This document shows, piece by piece, positions 38,201 through 43,924 of a DNA stretch of 64,000 nucleotides. The position numbers and the translations under genes are program-made. Source of the stretch: Rahnella aquatilis CIP 78.65 = ATCC 33071. Its GTDB lineage: Bacteria; Pseudomonadota; Gammaproteobacteria; Enterobacterales; Enterobacteriaceae. The DNA is taken from positions 3,658,001-3,722,000 of the forward strand of contig NC_016818.1 in the NCBI RefSeq assembly GCF_000241955.1. The letters run 5' to 3'. Position 1 is the stretch's first letter, and each line of letters opens with the position of its first letter. The notes under the pieces are model-generated. The model did not search any database, was not told where the DNA came from, and worked only from the letters and a program-made list of their open reading frames with translations.

Positions 38201-38491
38201 CTATTTCGTTAAATACTTACAGAGATACGACGTGGTCTCACCGACCTGTAAGTTGAATTCACTTTTACCCGGAATGTAGAACGTTTCGCCTGGCTTAAAC
38301 ACCTGCCAGTCCGGCGATCCCGGGATCAGCACTTTCAGTGAGCCGCTGATCACCGTCATTTCTTCCGGCTTTGCAGTGCCGAAAGTGTATTCACCGACGG
38401 CCATCACGCCCACACTGGCTGAACCCGTACTTTCGCTGTCGAAACCAATCGACTTCACTTTCCCGTCAAAATACTCATTATTTTTCAACAT
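38201..38491 (-). CDS. ppnP: Pyrimidine/purine nucleoside phosphorylase PpnP
   Basis: 96 residues from ATG 38489-38491, which has an AAGGG site before it; E. coli PpnP (YaiE) has 94. A single cupin domain with [32 protein letters not shown] and the C-terminal TSYLCKYL. It phosphorolyses several nucleosides. It lies beside rdgC and aroM, as in E. coli. Confidence 0.94.
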
Positions 38492-38672
38492 AGATTGGCC
38501 CTTTGCGATAAATTTCAGAGCCTTCATATTAGGGGGAGAAAGCGTCTTCTGTCACTGATTATTACGGCTTTATCCGCACGAGACGACACCGCCCGCAAAG
38601 CGATAGCGCTGATTTGATTTTACCGTCACACAGTGCCATTGTGGGTAGCTGTTCGCCCCGCCAGTCGTACCT

Positions 38673-39350
38673 TCAAACCACCAGTTCCGCCGCCAGCTTC
38701 GCCATCAGGACATTCGGTAACAACACCGGAATATTCAGATGCTTTTTCAGCACATCGGCGTGATGACGGTTAAAGCCGATGCAATCGAGCACCACGACTT
38801 CCGCCCCCTGTTCAGCCAGTTGCATCGCGGCTTGTGTCAGCGCCTCATCGTCAGAAAGATACGGGCTGGCAACAGCAAAACACGGCGCTTTAGCTAATTT
38901 GCGCCATTTGTTCGCCTGTTCAACCACCTGCGATTCAACCGGCACCACAATACCCGCACGATGCTGGCCAACCATTGCGCCGATCAACGGTGGAATAATG
39001 CGGTCAGGTTCCAGCAACAGCGCATTGTTAGCCTGCAGGTGATGAAACTGGCCGGTGCAAAGCAGCAGAATGGTCATGCAACCCAGCGCTTCCAGTAACG
39101 CGATTTTTTCCTGTAATCCTCGCTCCACACGGTGCGCAGCCATCGTGACCTGCGAACCATCAAGCAGGCGGGTGACCAGTACCGCCTCGCCCTCTGCGGC
39201 AGCATAGCGCTGTTCAATTTGCTCCGTACTTAACCCGTCGAGTAAGCCCACATGGGTGACAGACCCGGCTGGCAGATGTGCCATCAGCAGCGACATAATA
39301 TCGCTGCGTGGCGCCTGTCCGATTGTTAACGTCGCAAGGGATGTCATCAT
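38673..39350 (-). CDS. aroM: AroM-family protein
   Basis: 225 residues from ATG 39348-39350, exactly the length of E. coli AroM. The start lies 4 bases past the stop of the DUF1177 gene and uses GGAAG inside that gene as its site, so the two are coupled. The sequence carries TLTIGQAPRSD at the N-terminus, then LEPDRIIPPL, and the C-terminal VVVLDCIGFNRHH with a Cys typical of Asp/Glu-racemase-like folds. In E. coli aroM is next to aroL with no known enzyme role. Here it is the last gene of an IclR-OPT-DUF1177 operon, which hints at a metabolic role with those genes. Confidence 0.88.
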   Translation of the reverse strand: MMTSLATLTIGQAPRSDIMSLLMAHLPAGSVTHVGLLDGLSTEQIEQRYAAAEGEAVLVTRLLDGSQVTMAAHRVERGLQEKIALLEALGCMTILLLCTGQFHHLQANNALLLEPDRIIPPLIGAMVGQHRAGIVVPVESQVVEQANKWRKLAKAPCFAVASPYLSDDEALTQAAMQLAEQGAEVVVLDCIGFNRHHADVLKKHLNIPVLLPNVLMAKLAAELVV

Positions 39351-39354
39351 CGTG

Positions 39355-40284
39355 TTACTTCCGGTTTTGCAGGTGGCGCAAGCTTCCGTACAGCGACAAC
39401 AGGAGTTGATATTCATCGGCATCAAAAAACTGACAGGTGCCGCGGCCAAACTCTTTCGCGACTTCAACGGCAAATTTTGCCGCCAGCGCGATATCCACTT
39501 CATGACTTGCCCCGGTGCCACAACCCGGTACAACCGATTCCGCCGTAATAGCCACACCGACCACCGGTACGGTAGTCGCCGTTGACGGTTGCAGAATACT
39601 GTTCAGATGATGCACGCCGTTGCCGTAAGGCGTGATGTCCTGCGTGGTAATCGGGAAAGTGACCGCCGGTTTGCCGCTGGTCATTTCCATGATGCGCAGT
39701 AAATCTTCAGAAACACGCAGGATGTAACCCTCTTTCACCGTCGGCGAAATCGCGTATCCCTTGTGACTGATGATGCGGTTGCCTTTGGTGGTGTCGATAG
39801 ACAGGATGGCATCGACGCCGTCCACCACTTCATTATCATTCATGGTCACGTCATCAATCGGCGAATCCATGAAATCGACCGGATCATGCGGGCGGGTCGG
39901 TGCGTTCGGGCAAATATGGGTAGTGATAATCACGTCGCCGTCGAGCACATCGCCCTTGCGCTGCATGTCAGCCAGCTTGAGTGCGCTGCTGACAGCGGCA
40001 ATCGCACCATCGCCATCAGAGACCAGACCGATACGCGTCGGACGCGCACCAATCCCGCCAAGACGGCCGATAATCCCGAGCGTTGGCGCTGTGCCGCCAC
40101 GGCTTTTCCCCTGGCTGCCCGGCACGGTGATACGCACAAAATCGGTGCCGCCTTTCGGGCCGTCAGCGCGGTGGGTGCTGGCGGTGATGCCCGGATAGCG
40201 GGCGAACAAGTCCACAATGTCCTGGCCGCTGACATAGGCGCTGTCAATCAGTTCGAATACCGTTAATGTCTGTTGCAAACTCAT
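39355..40284 (-). CDS. DUF1177 protein of unknown function
   Basis: 309 residues from ATG 40282-40284, with an AGAGGA site 7 bases upstream; a GTG one codon earlier is less likely. Recognised as the DUF1177 family. Conserved-looking parts are ADGPKGGTDFVRI, GLVSDGDGAIAAV, THICPNAPTRPHDPVDFMDSP, ISHKGYAIS and GASHEVDIALAAKFAVEVAKEFG. The His, Asp and Cys residues of the middle block could form a metal site, but this is a guess. No signal peptide or membrane segment. It lies between an OPT transporter and aroM and probably acts on what the transporter brings in. Confidence 0.8.
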   Translation of the reverse strand: MSLQQTLTVFELIDSAYVSGQDIVDLFARYPGITASTHRADGPKGGTDFVRITVPGSQGKSRGGTAPTLGIIGRLGGIGARPTRIGLVSDGDGAIAAVSSALKLADMQRKGDVLDGDVIITTHICPNAPTRPHDPVDFMDSPIDDVTMNDNEVVDGVDAILSIDTTKGNRIISHKGYAISPTVKEGYILRVSEDLLRIMEMTSGKPAVTFPITTQDITPYGNGVHHLNSILQPSTATTVPVVGVAITAESVVPGCGTGASHEVDIALAAKFAVEVAKEFGRGTCQFFDADEYQLLLSLYGSLRHLQNRK

Positions 40285-40419
40285 CACAAAGTCCTCTTAA
40301 AACATCGCGACCGGCGTATGTCACGCAGTAGCCAAAACGGTCGCGGGTGCTGTTCATCGTGGAACAGTCAGGTGTTTAATGCTGGCTGAACATCAGCCCT
40401 GGTGTTGGTGCGGTACTCG

Positions 40420-41997
40420 TTATTTTTTGGCACTGAAAATCGAGGTGAAGAAGCTGTAAAGTGCATCACCGGCAATAAAGCCTGCCGCCAGCACTTCCAT
40501 TGGCGTACGCCCTTTTTCACCCCAGATTCGGATAATGATAATGCGCAGCACGATGCCGCAGACTACGGCCCATCCGGCCATCACGCTGTTGATCAGCAAA
40601 CCGGTCGCCAGCAGCACGCCAAGCTGGCGTTTCGGGCCGCCAATCAGCTGAATCAATGCGCCCGGAATCGCCCAGATCAGCAGGCTGTGCGCAATGCCCG
40701 GCTGGGCACCGGCCTGAATAGTTTTGGCATAAACCCGCGCGACCGGCGGTACTAAATCCTGGGCGAAGTAACCGTAATGGGCGTACCACACAACGGGAAT
40801 GGCGATGATAAATGCCAGCAATGCAGCGAATAACTGGATGCGGCGGCCATAGAGTTCAGCCTGCAAATCTTTGCCATAACCGCGCAAAATGAATCCGGCT
40901 TTCAGGTCAAAGCCCATATCGGCAAATGCCGGGCCGGTAGCCGCAGTAAAGCCGGTCAGTACGCACAACGCCAGTGGCGGGAAGCCGAGCAGAATGCCGA
41001 TAATTAAGGTAATCAGCGCCACGGCAAAGGCAGGGAACCAGCCGGAATGCATCGCGGCAATCCCGACAATCAGCTCATGGAAGAAAGCAGCAAAGGCAGC
41101 GTAAATCACGAACGCGATCAGCATGCCGACCGACATTTCACTGTACAGCCCGCCTGCCAGCGCCAGCAGTGCAGCAATAGCAATATAACCGAATGCGCCC
41201 AGACCGAGCGCTTTACGCACCTCTTTCGCCGGTTGGGTAAACGTGGCTTTGGCGTCGGCGTTTTTAGCGCGCACCACCTGAATCACCTGCAGCAACGACA
41301 CCAGCCCCGCGCCAACCATCATGCCGTGCGGAATATACAGCGCGTTAAGATCCAGCCCGGCGACCGGCTGCGCATAAGCGCGGATCAGCAAGCCGATACC
41401 AAACATACTGAGCGCCCAGATATTGCCGATAAATGCCGTACCGAAAGCCGCCATCGGGATTTTAAGCATCGCGCCCCCCAGCCCGACAACCACACCCGCG
41501 ACCAGCAGCCAGGCCTGACGGCCGCCGTTATCACCCGCTTTGATGGCTTCAGCCGCCGCAACACCCGGTGGCCAGGCATTGCTGGCAGGGAACACTTTGG
41601 TGTCGAACAGACGGTAAAGCAGATAGGCATCGAGCAACATCGCTGCGGCTACGCCGGTAAACATCGGCATGATCAGTTGCGGCTGCCCCATGACATAAGG
41701 GATAGCGATCGGCATCAGCAAACTGTTTGCCGCGCCAAAGGTCGCAGAAGAAATAACGGTTTGCGCCAGATTCTGCGTATGAACAGAACGGTAGCGGTGA
41801 AAAGCCTGCATCGGAATGCGCGCCAGTAGCATGGCAAACAGCGCGCCGATAATCGACGTATTTGGCGTAACGCCTAACGTGGTAATCAGTTGAACACCGA
41901 TGATTGCGCCTAAAACAGACAGCAAAATCATCACGATGAGCGTGCCAATATCCTTTAGCGGATTTTCCTTATTATGTTTTGCAGGTTGATCTGACAT
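40420..41997 (-). CDS. OPT-family oligopeptide or metal-chelate transporter
   Basis: 525 residues from ATG 41995-41997, with AGGGG before it; ten more codons upstream are in frame but less likely. About 14 hydrophobic segments. The ASNAWPPGVAAAEAIKAG block is the OPT signature, and MGFDLKAGFILRG-YGKDLQAE lies in a loop. OPT carriers move peptides, glutathione or nicotianamine/siderophore-like metal chelates with protons. The substrate here is unknown. It is followed after 132 bases by the DUF1177 gene and preceded by an IclR regulator on the same strand. Confidence 0.85.
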   Translation of the reverse strand: MSDQPAKHNKENPLKDIGTLIVMILLSVLGAIIGVQLITTLGVTPNTSIIGALFAMLLARIPMQAFHRYRSVHTQNLAQTVISSATFGAANSLLMPIAIPYVMGQPQLIMPMFTGVAAAMLLDAYLLYRLFDTKVFPASNAWPPGVAAAEAIKAGDNGGRQAWLLVAGVVVGLGGAMLKIPMAAFGTAFIGNIWALSMFGIGLLIRAYAQPVAGLDLNALYIPHGMMVGAGLVSLLQVIQVVRAKNADAKATFTQPAKEVRKALGLGAFGYIAIAALLALAGGLYSEMSVGMLIAFVIYAAFAAFFHELIVGIAAMHSGWFPAFAVALITLIIGILLGFPPLALCVLTGFTAATGPAFADMGFDLKAGFILRGYGKDLQAELYGRRIQLFAALLAFIIAIPVVWYAHYGYFAQDLVPPVARVYAKTIQAGAQPGIAHSLLIWAIPGALIQLIGGPKRQLGVLLATGLLINSVMAGWAVVCGIVLRIIIIRIWGEKGRTPMEVLAAGFIAGDALYSFFTSIFSAKK

Positions 41998-42070
41998 AAG
42001 GCCCCTGGTGTTGAGCAAGTATTTCACATAGCAAATAATCCGGGTCCGTTATAGGTCATTATCCTGACGG

Positions 42071-42853
42071 CTACATTGCCGTTTTAGATAAATGCCAATA
42101 CTCATCACCCAATTTTTCGGCGATTTGCCGGGTTACAGCAATCAGCCCTTCTTTTATGCCTTGCGGAATTTCTTTCCCCGGCGCGGGCGAAGGGAAAGAT
42201 AAACATAATCCGACGGTCTCATTACGGTGCTTATTAAAAATACTGGTGGCTAAGGTACTTATTCCCAATAACGTTTCGTTGCTGGCAAATGACACACCGT
42301 GCTGCCGGACTTCCGCCAGCCGGGATAACAGAATCTCCCTGCTTGCCGGCGAATTAGCAGAATTCACCTGATATTTGTCGCTGTAGCGTGCCAGAACTTC
42401 ATCATCGGTATATCGTGCCAAAATCGCGCGCCCGATGGCTGTTTCATGCGCGGGCAACAGGCTTCCGGCCGGAGTGACCACTTGCAGATACGTTCTGCCC
42501 GGAAACATGCGCATGACCATGATGTCGCGCCCTTCCAGCATGGAGATATAGCCGGTGCATTGCGTCAGCTGGCTGAGTTGCGCCATATAAGGCGACGCTA
42601 AATCGACCAGCGGAGCCGATAAATAATGGCTGGAAACAGCCAGTAATAATCGTCCGATTCGGTACAAACGGCTGTCAGGATCACGTTCGAGCAGCCCTTC
42701 TGTTTCCATCGTCATCAGCAAACGGGAAACCGTACTTTTCGGTAATTTTAAATCTTCGACCACATCACTGAATGACAAACCCGGATGTCCCTGCCGGACT
42801 CCTTGTTTTGAAAATAATTTCAGTACCGCAGCCGCATTTTCTAATGTGGTCAT
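42071..42853 (-). CDS. IclR-family transcriptional regulator
   Basis: A 260-residue protein. The N-terminal winged helix-turn-helix (about residues 20-60: SDVVEDLKLPKSTVSRLLMTMETEGLL) is followed by the IclR effector domain, with HETAIGRAILA and GVSFASNETLLGISTLATSIF. AAAGGAG lies before the ATG. It is the first gene of a same-strand group with the OPT transporter, DUF1177 and AroM, so it likely controls that group. A GGAAC/GTTCC palindrome lies just upstream. Confidence 0.9.
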   Translation of the reverse strand: MTTLENAAAVLKLFSKQGVRQGHPGLSFSDVVEDLKLPKSTVSRLLMTMETEGLLERDPDSRLYRIGRLLLAVSSHYLSAPLVDLASPYMAQLSQLTQCTGYISMLEGRDIMVMRMFPGRTYLQVVTPAGSLLPAHETAIGRAILARYTDDEVLARYSDKYQVNSANSPASREILLSRLAEVRQHGVSFASNETLLGISTLATSIFNKHRNETVGLCLSFPSPAPGKEIPQGIKEGLIAVTRQIAEKLGDEYWHLSKTAM

Positions 42854-42863
42854 AAAGGAGTGA

Positions 42864-42888
42864 GTTCCGGTATATGGAACAGGGTTCC
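42864..42888 (-). promoter_or_regulatory. Candidate IclR operator
   Basis: GTTCC, seven bases, GGAAC, three bases, GTTCC, 11 to 35 bases before the IclR start. The inner GGAAC-AGG-GTTCC dyad resembles the GGAA-N5-TTCC core of known IclR sites. Location and form suggest self-control. Confidence 0.55.
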
Positions 42889-43073: not shown

Positions 43074-43193
43074 TTAAATATTACGCAAAATATAAAGGGC
43101 GATGCAGGTTTCGACGAGAATAATGGTGACTGACCAGATAGCCGGCATCGCTTTGGCGTGCTGACTGAAGAACGACTTCAGGGCTTTCATCAT
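43074..43193 (-). CDS. Putative small membrane peptide, 39 residues
   Basis: An ATG-ATG start with CGGA five bases ahead opens a 39-codon frame ending in TAA. The peptide has a basic amphipathic start (MMKALKSFFSQHAKAMP) and one hydrophobic segment (AIWSVTIILVETCIALYIL) ending in RNI, as in bacterial small membrane proteins with cytoplasmic N-terminus. It is too short for usual gene calling and I recognise no named family. A perfect dyad lies at 43256-43274 upstream. Codon use is like the neighbours. It might also be a chance frame. Confidence 0.5.
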   Translation of the reverse strand: MMKALKSFFSQHAKAMPAIWSVTIILVETCIALYILRNI

Positions 43194-43399: not shown

Positions 43400-43924
43400 T
43401 CAGCGCACCATTGGCAGCGCCAGCGCGTCCATAATCAGGTTCACGACAGTCTGCGGCTCCTGCGTTCCGTCAACAACATGATGGGCGGCCTCCTGATAAA
43501 GCGCCTCGCGCTCATTCAGTACTTCCATCATTTCTTCAGTAATCGGTTTGCCCGTCAATGTCGGGCGCTGATCTTCCAGCGGCGTATCTTCCAGACGATT
43601 TGCCAGGGTTGATGCCGGGGAACGCAGATAAATGACAGTACCGTTTTCACACATAAAGTCGCGATTTTCCTGGGACAACACCACGCCGCCACCTGTGGCA
43701 ACTACGGTCAGTGGCGAGCAGATGGCTTTGAGTGTCTCAGTTTCACGGCGGCGAAAGCCTTCCCAGCCTTCGCGCTCAACAATATCTGCCACGCTGAGGC
43801 CAGAAGTGCACAGCAACGCCAGATCGGTATCGACAAATTTGTAGCCCAGCGTTTTAGCCAGAGCACTGCCCACCGTCGTTTTACCTGCACCGCGCGCGCC
43901 GACCATGAAAATGGTTTGTGTCAT
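43400..43924 (-). CDS. aroL: Shikimate kinase II
   Basis: A 174-residue P-loop kinase, as in E. coli. Walker [12 protein letters not shown] at residues 8-18, shikimate-binding [17 protein letters not shown], the [12 protein letters not shown] block and ATGGGVVL are present. It phosphorylates shikimate at O3 on the way to chorismate. E. coli aroL is next to yaiA and aroM; here the yaiA gene is absent and a transporter operon separates aroL from aroM. TyrR and TrpR control it in E. coli; a weak TrpR-like site lies at 44015-44034. Confidence 0.96.

Follow-up and report, generated by a model that had tools for sequence, protein, structure and literature searches.

In Escherichia coli K-12, the gene order at aroM is aroL-yaiA-aroM-ppnP-rdgC-mak. 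The gene name, which refers to the aromatic pathway, dates from at least 1986 (an entry in the reference list of PMC11055893), and that paper describes the AroM family as experimentally uncharacterized. We describe here the corresponding locus of Rahnella aquatilis CIP 78.65 = ATCC 33071, contained in a stretch of 64,000 nucleotides (contig NC_016818.1, positions 3,658,001 to 3,722,000), which is called the window below and to which all positions refer. The two loci share the place between aroL and ppnP and an AroM of the same clade. They differ in that the E. coli locus is without the iclR-type regulator gene, the OPT-family transporter gene, and the DUF1177 gene that precede aroM in the window (Table 1), and in that C98 is replaced by Ser in the E. 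coli K-12 AroM, the second cysteine being retained.

AroM constitutes a Pfam family of its own (PF07302), separate from the Asp/Glu/hydantoin racemases of PF01177, for which its score is below the cut-off. Operon-type AroM appears, from its structure model, to share with those racemases the fold and two cysteine positions, with ∼9%–17% identity to the racemase-type structures listed. Gene clusters with cyclodipeptide oxidases but without a cyclodipeptide synthase contain AroM, PF01177 racemases, DUF917, OPT transporters, and peptidases, according to PMC11055893, in the main text of which DUF1177 is not mentioned. An oxidase-like gene pair is shared with those clusters by five of the DUF1177 loci analyzed here; the window and the 20 relatives at the aroL locus (see below) differ in being without the oxidase. 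In hydantoin-utilization (hyu) gene sets, the plan of racemase, amide hydrolase, and transporter is the same, and one AroM (locus L270) lies in such a set; the difference is that no hydantoinase or carbamoylase occurs among the four genes of the unit. Literature searches found nothing tying AroM to OPT and a racemase, nothing on cyclodipeptide oxidase in catabolic operons and, for DUF1177, nothing beyond work on fungal DUF1996 proteins.

The reading favored here, with moderate confidence, is that the four genes form a catabolic operon for small peptide amides between aroL and ppnP, of which the E. coli aroM would be the left-over. The basis for it consists of gene order, conservation, predicted folds, a cysteine pattern, a deletion scar in two relatives, and an RNA structure. 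The evidence narrows the possible chemistry of the unit without proving it; of most use is what it says on where E. coli aroM probably came from, together with the accompanying loss of a cysteine. New here are the predicted fold of DUF1177, the cysteine-pair pattern, the further genes that relatives add (peptidases, another racemase, DUF917, or a cyclodipeptide-oxidase-like pair), the probable relic origin of aroM, and a covarying RNA without a match in Rfam.

Conservation of the unit

The loci compared are the best 80 of at least 512 confirmed DUF1177 relatives, with one genome per species and flanks of at most 10 kb; being the best of these relatives, they lean towards close kin. Neighbor counts rest on tblastn-based gene orders. 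AroM is present in 72 of the 80 loci and follows DUF1177 immediately in 70; OPT is present in 61, and 75 have either OPT or an ABC transporter of the dipeptide type. The preliminary description of the window had proposed the four genes as a coupled unit, a proposal to be given up if the families rarely occurred together elsewhere; instead, they are regularly found together. Twenty of the loci sit at aroL/rdgC (in Rahnella, Rouxiella, Hafnia, Serratia, Pantoea, Erwinia, and one further enterobacterium), and AroM is found in 19 of these. The other 60, away from aroL, are mostly from Proteobacteria, Bacilli, and Acidobacteria.

Whole-genome counts agree with these neighborhoods. Among 198 genomes of the window's family, 21 contain DUF1177 and 79 AroM, with both in 18 and adjacent in 17; AroM occurs in 18/21 genomes with DUF1177 versus 61/177 others (Fisher P = 7e-6). 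Among 200 genomes of Bacilli (the class of Niallia), 14 contain DUF1177, 15 AroM, and 13 both, so that AroM occurs in 13/14 genomes with DUF1177 versus 2/186 others (P = 2e-17); in three of the 13 (G643, G738, G770), AroM lies ∼9 kb from DUF1177. In a phylum sample of 398 genomes, DUF1177 occurs in three and AroM in 14, including all three; of the other 11 genomes with AroM, eight have it at the aroL locus and three beside DUF917 and a hydantoinase/oxoprolinase gene. The DUF1177 family comprises at least thousands of protein clusters from bacteria and archaea. The unit is real and more widespread than the preliminary description stated.

The composition varies around this core. On plasmids of Klebsiella and Sodalis the order is iclR-OPT-DUF1177-aroM-pepE-racemase, and a haloarchaeal plasmid has DUF917-DUF1177-AroM-aminopeptidase with a racemase close by. 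In the AroM-less DUF1177 loci L082 and L088 (both Providencia) and L157–L159 (three further genomes), an IclR gene adjoins DUF1177. The gene yaiA accompanies iclR-OPT-DUF1177 in 17 of the 20 relatives at aroL (L034 and L046 are without it, and L035 ends at a contig edge). Its absence is therefore local to the lineage of the window and not a feature of the unit; that yaiA is gone, as had been noted earlier, is true of the window, where a tblastn query with the E. coli protein gave no match at E 1e-4, but not of most operon-bearing relatives.

Several loci deserve separate mention. The six-gene form on a Klebsiella pneumoniae plasmid typed as conjugative (L028) is flanked by transposase genes. 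In L104 and L032, DUF917 and hydantoinase/oxoprolinase genes adjoin DUF1177, and AroM was not found by tblastn in the locus. An IclR-OPT-PepE-DUF1177 form without AroM is present in L160 and L184, with a class-V aminotransferase between OPT and PepE in L160. Fragmented matches to DUF1177 and AroM occur both in a PepE-type operon and at the aroL locus of one genome scored as 49% complete (L265 and L266 of G028).

AroM and DUF1177 proteins

The window AroM scores 241.7 bits against the PF07302 profile (cut-off 23.8). Its structure model has a predicted local distance difference test (pLDDT) value of 92.5, and the best fold match in the PDB (Foldseek) is hydantoin racemase 2eq5 (E 4.7e-7), followed by allantoin racemase and others; all of the 32 top-ranked structures belong to racemases, arylmalonate decarboxylase, maleate isomerase, or an unnamed protein (4ix1). 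Clustered PF01177 proteins have cysteines opposite C98 and C190 in the alignment (probability 96.4, E 1.4e-9), at positions which we take to be the catalytic ones of PF01177 racemases. The racemase-like fold previously ascribed to AroM is borne out by these matches.

DUF1177 has a predicted zinc-exopeptidase fold of the M20, M28, and M17 type. It differs from those enzymes in having no convincing sequence match to any solved structure and no evident ligand motifs: comparisons of the DUF1177 sequence with solved structures, singly and as a profile, gave chance-level matches only, and the profile against clustered M20 peptidases was not significant. There is no HxD at R74–G76, and the usual zinc-ligand motifs are not evident from sequence. 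Residues D90, C125, D164, D216, and H226 occur in 141/141 aligned rows and H123 in 140 (the window counted twice).

The OPT protein scores 117.4 bits against PF03169 (cut-off 25.8); a sequence comparison with solved structures gave only chance-level matches and no related structure.

Proposed pathway and alternatives

In the pathway that we propose, IclR would control a small catabolic operon and the OPT protein would import a small amide resembling a peptide, the most likely candidates being cyclic dipeptides and other dipeptides whose residues are D/L or blocked. AroM would then epimerize the imported amide, and DUF1177, with its exopeptidase-type fold, would hydrolyze it after AroM. The product could be finished by peptidases encoded elsewhere; relatives encode PepE, M29, or M20 in the same cluster, and the genome of the window has a PepE-family gene at another place. 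The likely role is the breakdown of small peptide amides, cyclic or racemic, with cyclic dipeptides as a first guess for the substrate.

The neighbors away from aroL bear on this proposal. Of those 60 loci, 49 contain a PepE, M29, or M20 peptidase, 29 a second racemase (PF01177), 18 DUF917, and four hydantoinase/oxoprolinase A; none of these families was found in the 20 loci at aroL. A PepE dipeptidase gene is present in 19 of the 80 loci; PepE prefers an N-terminal Asp. Five of the 60 have a nitroreductase-like gene with a small partner, resembling subunits A and B of cyclodipeptide oxidase: in the PDB, the pair of Niallia comes closest to AlbA (E 7e-24) and AlbB (E 4e-4), both cyclodipeptide oxidase subunits. 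No tblastn match to this pair was obtained in the window or in the 20 loci at aroL. The common plan of the clusters is a small-amide transporter, a hydrolase set, and a racemase.

None of 15 peptidases tried cleaved the diketopiperazines tested, and cyclo(Asp–Phe) and cyclo(Asp–Asp) are cleaved by Paenibacillus chibensis, the responsible enzymes being called unclear, according to a 2013 study (PMC3852281). A lactam is opened by an oxoprolinase-like enzyme according to PMC6061476. If the proposal is true, DUF1177 gains a candidate pathway besides its predicted fold, and the clusters offer gene candidates for the bacterial cleavage of cyclic dipeptides. A bolder version, tentative and rather unlikely to hold in all its parts, would make DUF1177 the missing ring-opening hydrolase of cyclic dipeptides, AroM the epimerase that enables the use of mixed D/L substrates, the E. 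coli AroM an exapted one-cysteine descendant, and the hitherto unrecorded RNA hairpin described below the control element of the DUF1177-aroM half.

The clusters could also be viewed as serving hydantoin or cyclic ureide catabolism, with AroM in a hydantoin-racemase-like step and DUF1177 opening or trimming a cyclic amide. The order of the fold matches of AroM, with hydantoin racemase before allantoin racemase, and the DUF917 and hydantoinase/oxoprolinase neighbors fit this view. So do the AroM-less L088, to which an NCS1 permease and a carbon–nitrogen hydrolase are added (L157 has a carbon–nitrogen hydrolase), and L270, where an AroM with a weaker match (E 9e-30) stands with IclR, M20, an amidohydrolase, and an NCS1 permease in a set resembling those for hydantoin utilization. 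However, the commonest partners besides AroM and IclR are OPT or dipeptide-type ABC transporters and the PepE, M29, and M20 peptidases, and the cyclodipeptide-oxidase-like genes point towards diketopiperazines; we consider a hydantoin pathway unlikely. In the window, tblastn gave no match to HyuA or HyuB (oxoprolinase-type), DUF917, or M20, an amidohydrolase-type hydantoinase and a carbon–nitrogen hydrolase not having been searched for, and no hydantoinase or carbamoylase was found in the nine neighboring genes scanned.

Salvage of ordinary dipeptides (for example, D/L- or Asp-containing) would require DUF1177 to work as a simple dipeptidase, with AroM racemizing the amino acids once cleavage has released them. 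It agrees with the predicted exopeptidase fold of the one, the racemase fold of the other, and the frequency of PepE genes, yet a plain dipeptidase would be redundant next to PepE, M29, or M20 in 49 of the 60 loci away from aroL, the canonical zinc ligands of DUF1177 seem absent, and enzymes for cyclic amides recur in the clusters, which makes this salvage distinctly unlikely. Uptake of a metal chelate is set aside, since no metal-related family is among the recurrent neighbors identified, although no test aimed at metals was made.

The joint pathway of the preliminary description (uptake by OPT, action by DUF1177 and AroM, control by IclR) is supported in part. The conserved coupled unit holds, and a peptide-like substrate for DUF1177 and AroM would fit the predicted exopeptidase fold, the racemase cysteines, and the peptidase neighbors; the chelate role suggested there finds no support among the recurrent neighbors identified.

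Origin of the solitary aroM

For the catabolic operon proposed above, we envisage that the unit reached the aroL-ppnP position in an ancestor of several enterobacterial groups, that iclR, OPT, and DUF1177 were lost in the E. coli line while aroM stayed, and that this aroM then lost one racemase cysteine and probably took another role. In all 62 genomes of the family in which AroM is not beside DUF1177, AroM lies at the aroL locus (in G188, DUF1177 is present at another site).

Two of these 62 genomes (G035 and G173) belong to the window's own genus and read aroL-iclR-aroM, with OPT and most of DUF1177 lost. In both (loci L144 and L145), iclR is retained at 81% identity. The alignable parts of iclR and aroM are ∼290 bp apart, and this gap contains a match to window positions 40418–40257, which cover the interval from OPT to DUF1177 together with the opening codons of DUF1177; then aroM follows. 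Each has a frame of 31 codons with the start of DUF1177, the stop of which overlaps the start of aroM. Judged by these remains, the gap is a deletion scar.

The AroM tree was built from 69 hand-picked rows, those away from aroL coming mostly from the DUF1177 search. All 37 AroMs of the aroL locus form one clade (support 100/100), within which the E. coli type groups with the AroMs of Pantoea operons (99/88), a quick tree agreeing. The operon-bearing rows alone are not a clade (approximately unbiased [AU] test, P = 0.0003); the AU test does not reject a tree that unites operon-bearing rows and scar genomes and keeps the E. coli type outside (P = 0.19). The DUF1177 and OPT trees are broadly congruent and fit one arrival at the aroL locus. 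For Buttiauxella, a transfer out of it is likely, and the positions of Chromobacterium and Serratia sp. Ag1 are uncertain. The last of these has, at L046, the reverse loss, aroL-iclR-OPT-DUF1177-ppnP, with neither aroM nor yaiA found in the locus DNA, the only DNA searched.

Because the AroMs of the aroL locus form one clade, the solitary aroM of E. coli is probably a survivor of the operon, its partners having been lost, as we infer, in E. coli's own line. The gene order of the window is probably the older one, and the E. coli aroM therefore a derived, left-over state. In the yaiA-aroM gap of E. coli, a search for remnants of OPT, DUF1177, and iclR gave chance-level matches only, and the DUF1177-OPT-iclR stretch has no blastn match ("distant" mode) among 20,395 E. 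coli records.

The cysteines were counted in 173 distinct AroM proteins of 200–260 amino acids, identical ones having been dropped. Both racemase cysteines are kept in 104/104 DUF1177-linked AroMs, in 5/5 found elsewhere without DUF1177, and in the two scar genomes, versus just 2/62 solitary AroMs; the second cysteine is kept in 49 of those 62. The two solitary AroMs with both cysteines (L163 and L192) are early branches, modestly supported, of the E. coli-type clade, so that loss of the partners seems to have preceded loss of the cysteine; the L163 genome additionally carries the operon at another site. Arylmalonate decarboxylase, among the fold matches of AroM, is a one-cysteine member of the superfamily.

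The solitary AroM looks constrained in sequence and not free to drift. Ratios of nonsynonymous to synonymous substitution rates (dN/dS) were taken for hand-picked pairs, seven solitary and eight with the aroL-locus operon or scar. They amount to 0.05–0.10 in the six usable solitary pairs (only two, 0.08 and 0.10, with dS < 1) and to 0.04–0.14 in the seven usable pairs with operon or scar. Relative to RdgC, solitary AroM diverges more (median ratio 3.15 vs. 2.26), an excess seen in all five shared distance bins, although barely in one. A changed function of solitary AroM is likely on these patterns.

The converse scenario, a solitary aroM ancestral at aroL-ppnP and an iclR-OPT-DUF1177 block arriving later in Rahnella, Hafnia, Rouxiella, and Pantoea, would accord with the unrejected tree and with the lack of any trace of the lost genes in E. 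coli, but is very improbable: it would need the DUF1177-AroM adjacency to be rebuilt by chance, the nearest outgroup of the aroL-locus clade consists of DUF1177-linked AroMs (in a sample drawn mostly from the DUF1177 search), the scars attest loss at the same locus, and the early-branching L163 and L192 retain both cysteines.

If aroM is a survivor of the operon, this would explain why no aromatic role is known for it, provide a testable ancestral activity, and predict that AroM of E. coli has ceased to be a racemase of the two-cysteine kind.

A conserved RNA hairpin

The gap between OPT and DUF1177 encodes an RNA conserved in Rahnella, Hafnia, Rouxiella, and their kin. It consists of ACACCAGGGC and a short stem, followed by a long hairpin bearing a bulge of 11 bases, just upstream of the DUF1177 ribosome site. 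In an alignment of 11 sequences, 16 pairs are intact throughout (176/176 cells paired) and seven of them are altered on both sides; slid controls pair at 27%–43%. On four of five measures the alignment outdoes each of 500 shuffles, the exception being the number of further pair types.

A model of the RNA finds one copy per genome in 6/198 genomes, always at the operon locus or a scar, all six matches being members of the training set or identical to one. With a single match per genome under strict filters, and one match in 25 sources, a dispersed repeat was rejected. No Rfam family matches the element in the window; a weak, sub-threshold snoRNA match inside iclR was taken as chance. In Pantoea-type loci, the gap is ∼20 bases, and no match to the element was found in the five searched. 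The persistence of the RNA in the scar genomes, despite the loss of OPT and most of DUF1177, makes aroM a possible target.

Layout of the locus

The coordinates (Table 1) agree with the order given in the preliminary description, in which iclR, OPT, and DUF1177 lie between aroL and aroM, all in the direction of aroM; the E. coli route from aroL to aroM through yaiA was also correctly given there. Four bases separate the DUF1177 stop (39357–39355) from the first ATG of aroM (39350–39348), and the last DUF1177 codons contain GGAAG, a stretch resembling a ribosome site ahead of aroM, both as had been noted.

Table 1. Features of the aroL-ppnP region in the window
Feature	Position	Strand	Profile match
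aroL (flanking landmark, outside the unit)	43400..43924	-	NF002988 shikimate kinase AroL
iclR-type regulator, 260 amino acids	42071..42853	-	Pfam IclR_C 2.7e-23, HTH_IclR 1.9e-11
OPT-family transporter, 525 amino acids	40420..41997	-	Pfam PF03169 9.9e-34
Conserved hairpin RNA element, OPT-DUF1177 gap, up to the DUF1177 start	40285..40407	-	
DUF1177 protein, 309 amino acids, predicted zinc-exopeptidase fold	39355..40284	-	Pfam DUF1177 1.7e-134
aroM, 225 amino acids, two-cysteine racemase-type protein (C98, C190)	38673..39350	-	PF07302 7.9e-72
ppnP (flanking landmark, outside the unit)	38201..38527	-	PF06865, NF007875

Between aroL and iclR, the window also encodes a hydrophobic protein of 39 residues (43074–43193, minus strand), a candidate small membrane protein, with identities of 79%–82% in L034, L144, and L145 and 45% in Hafnia (L036).

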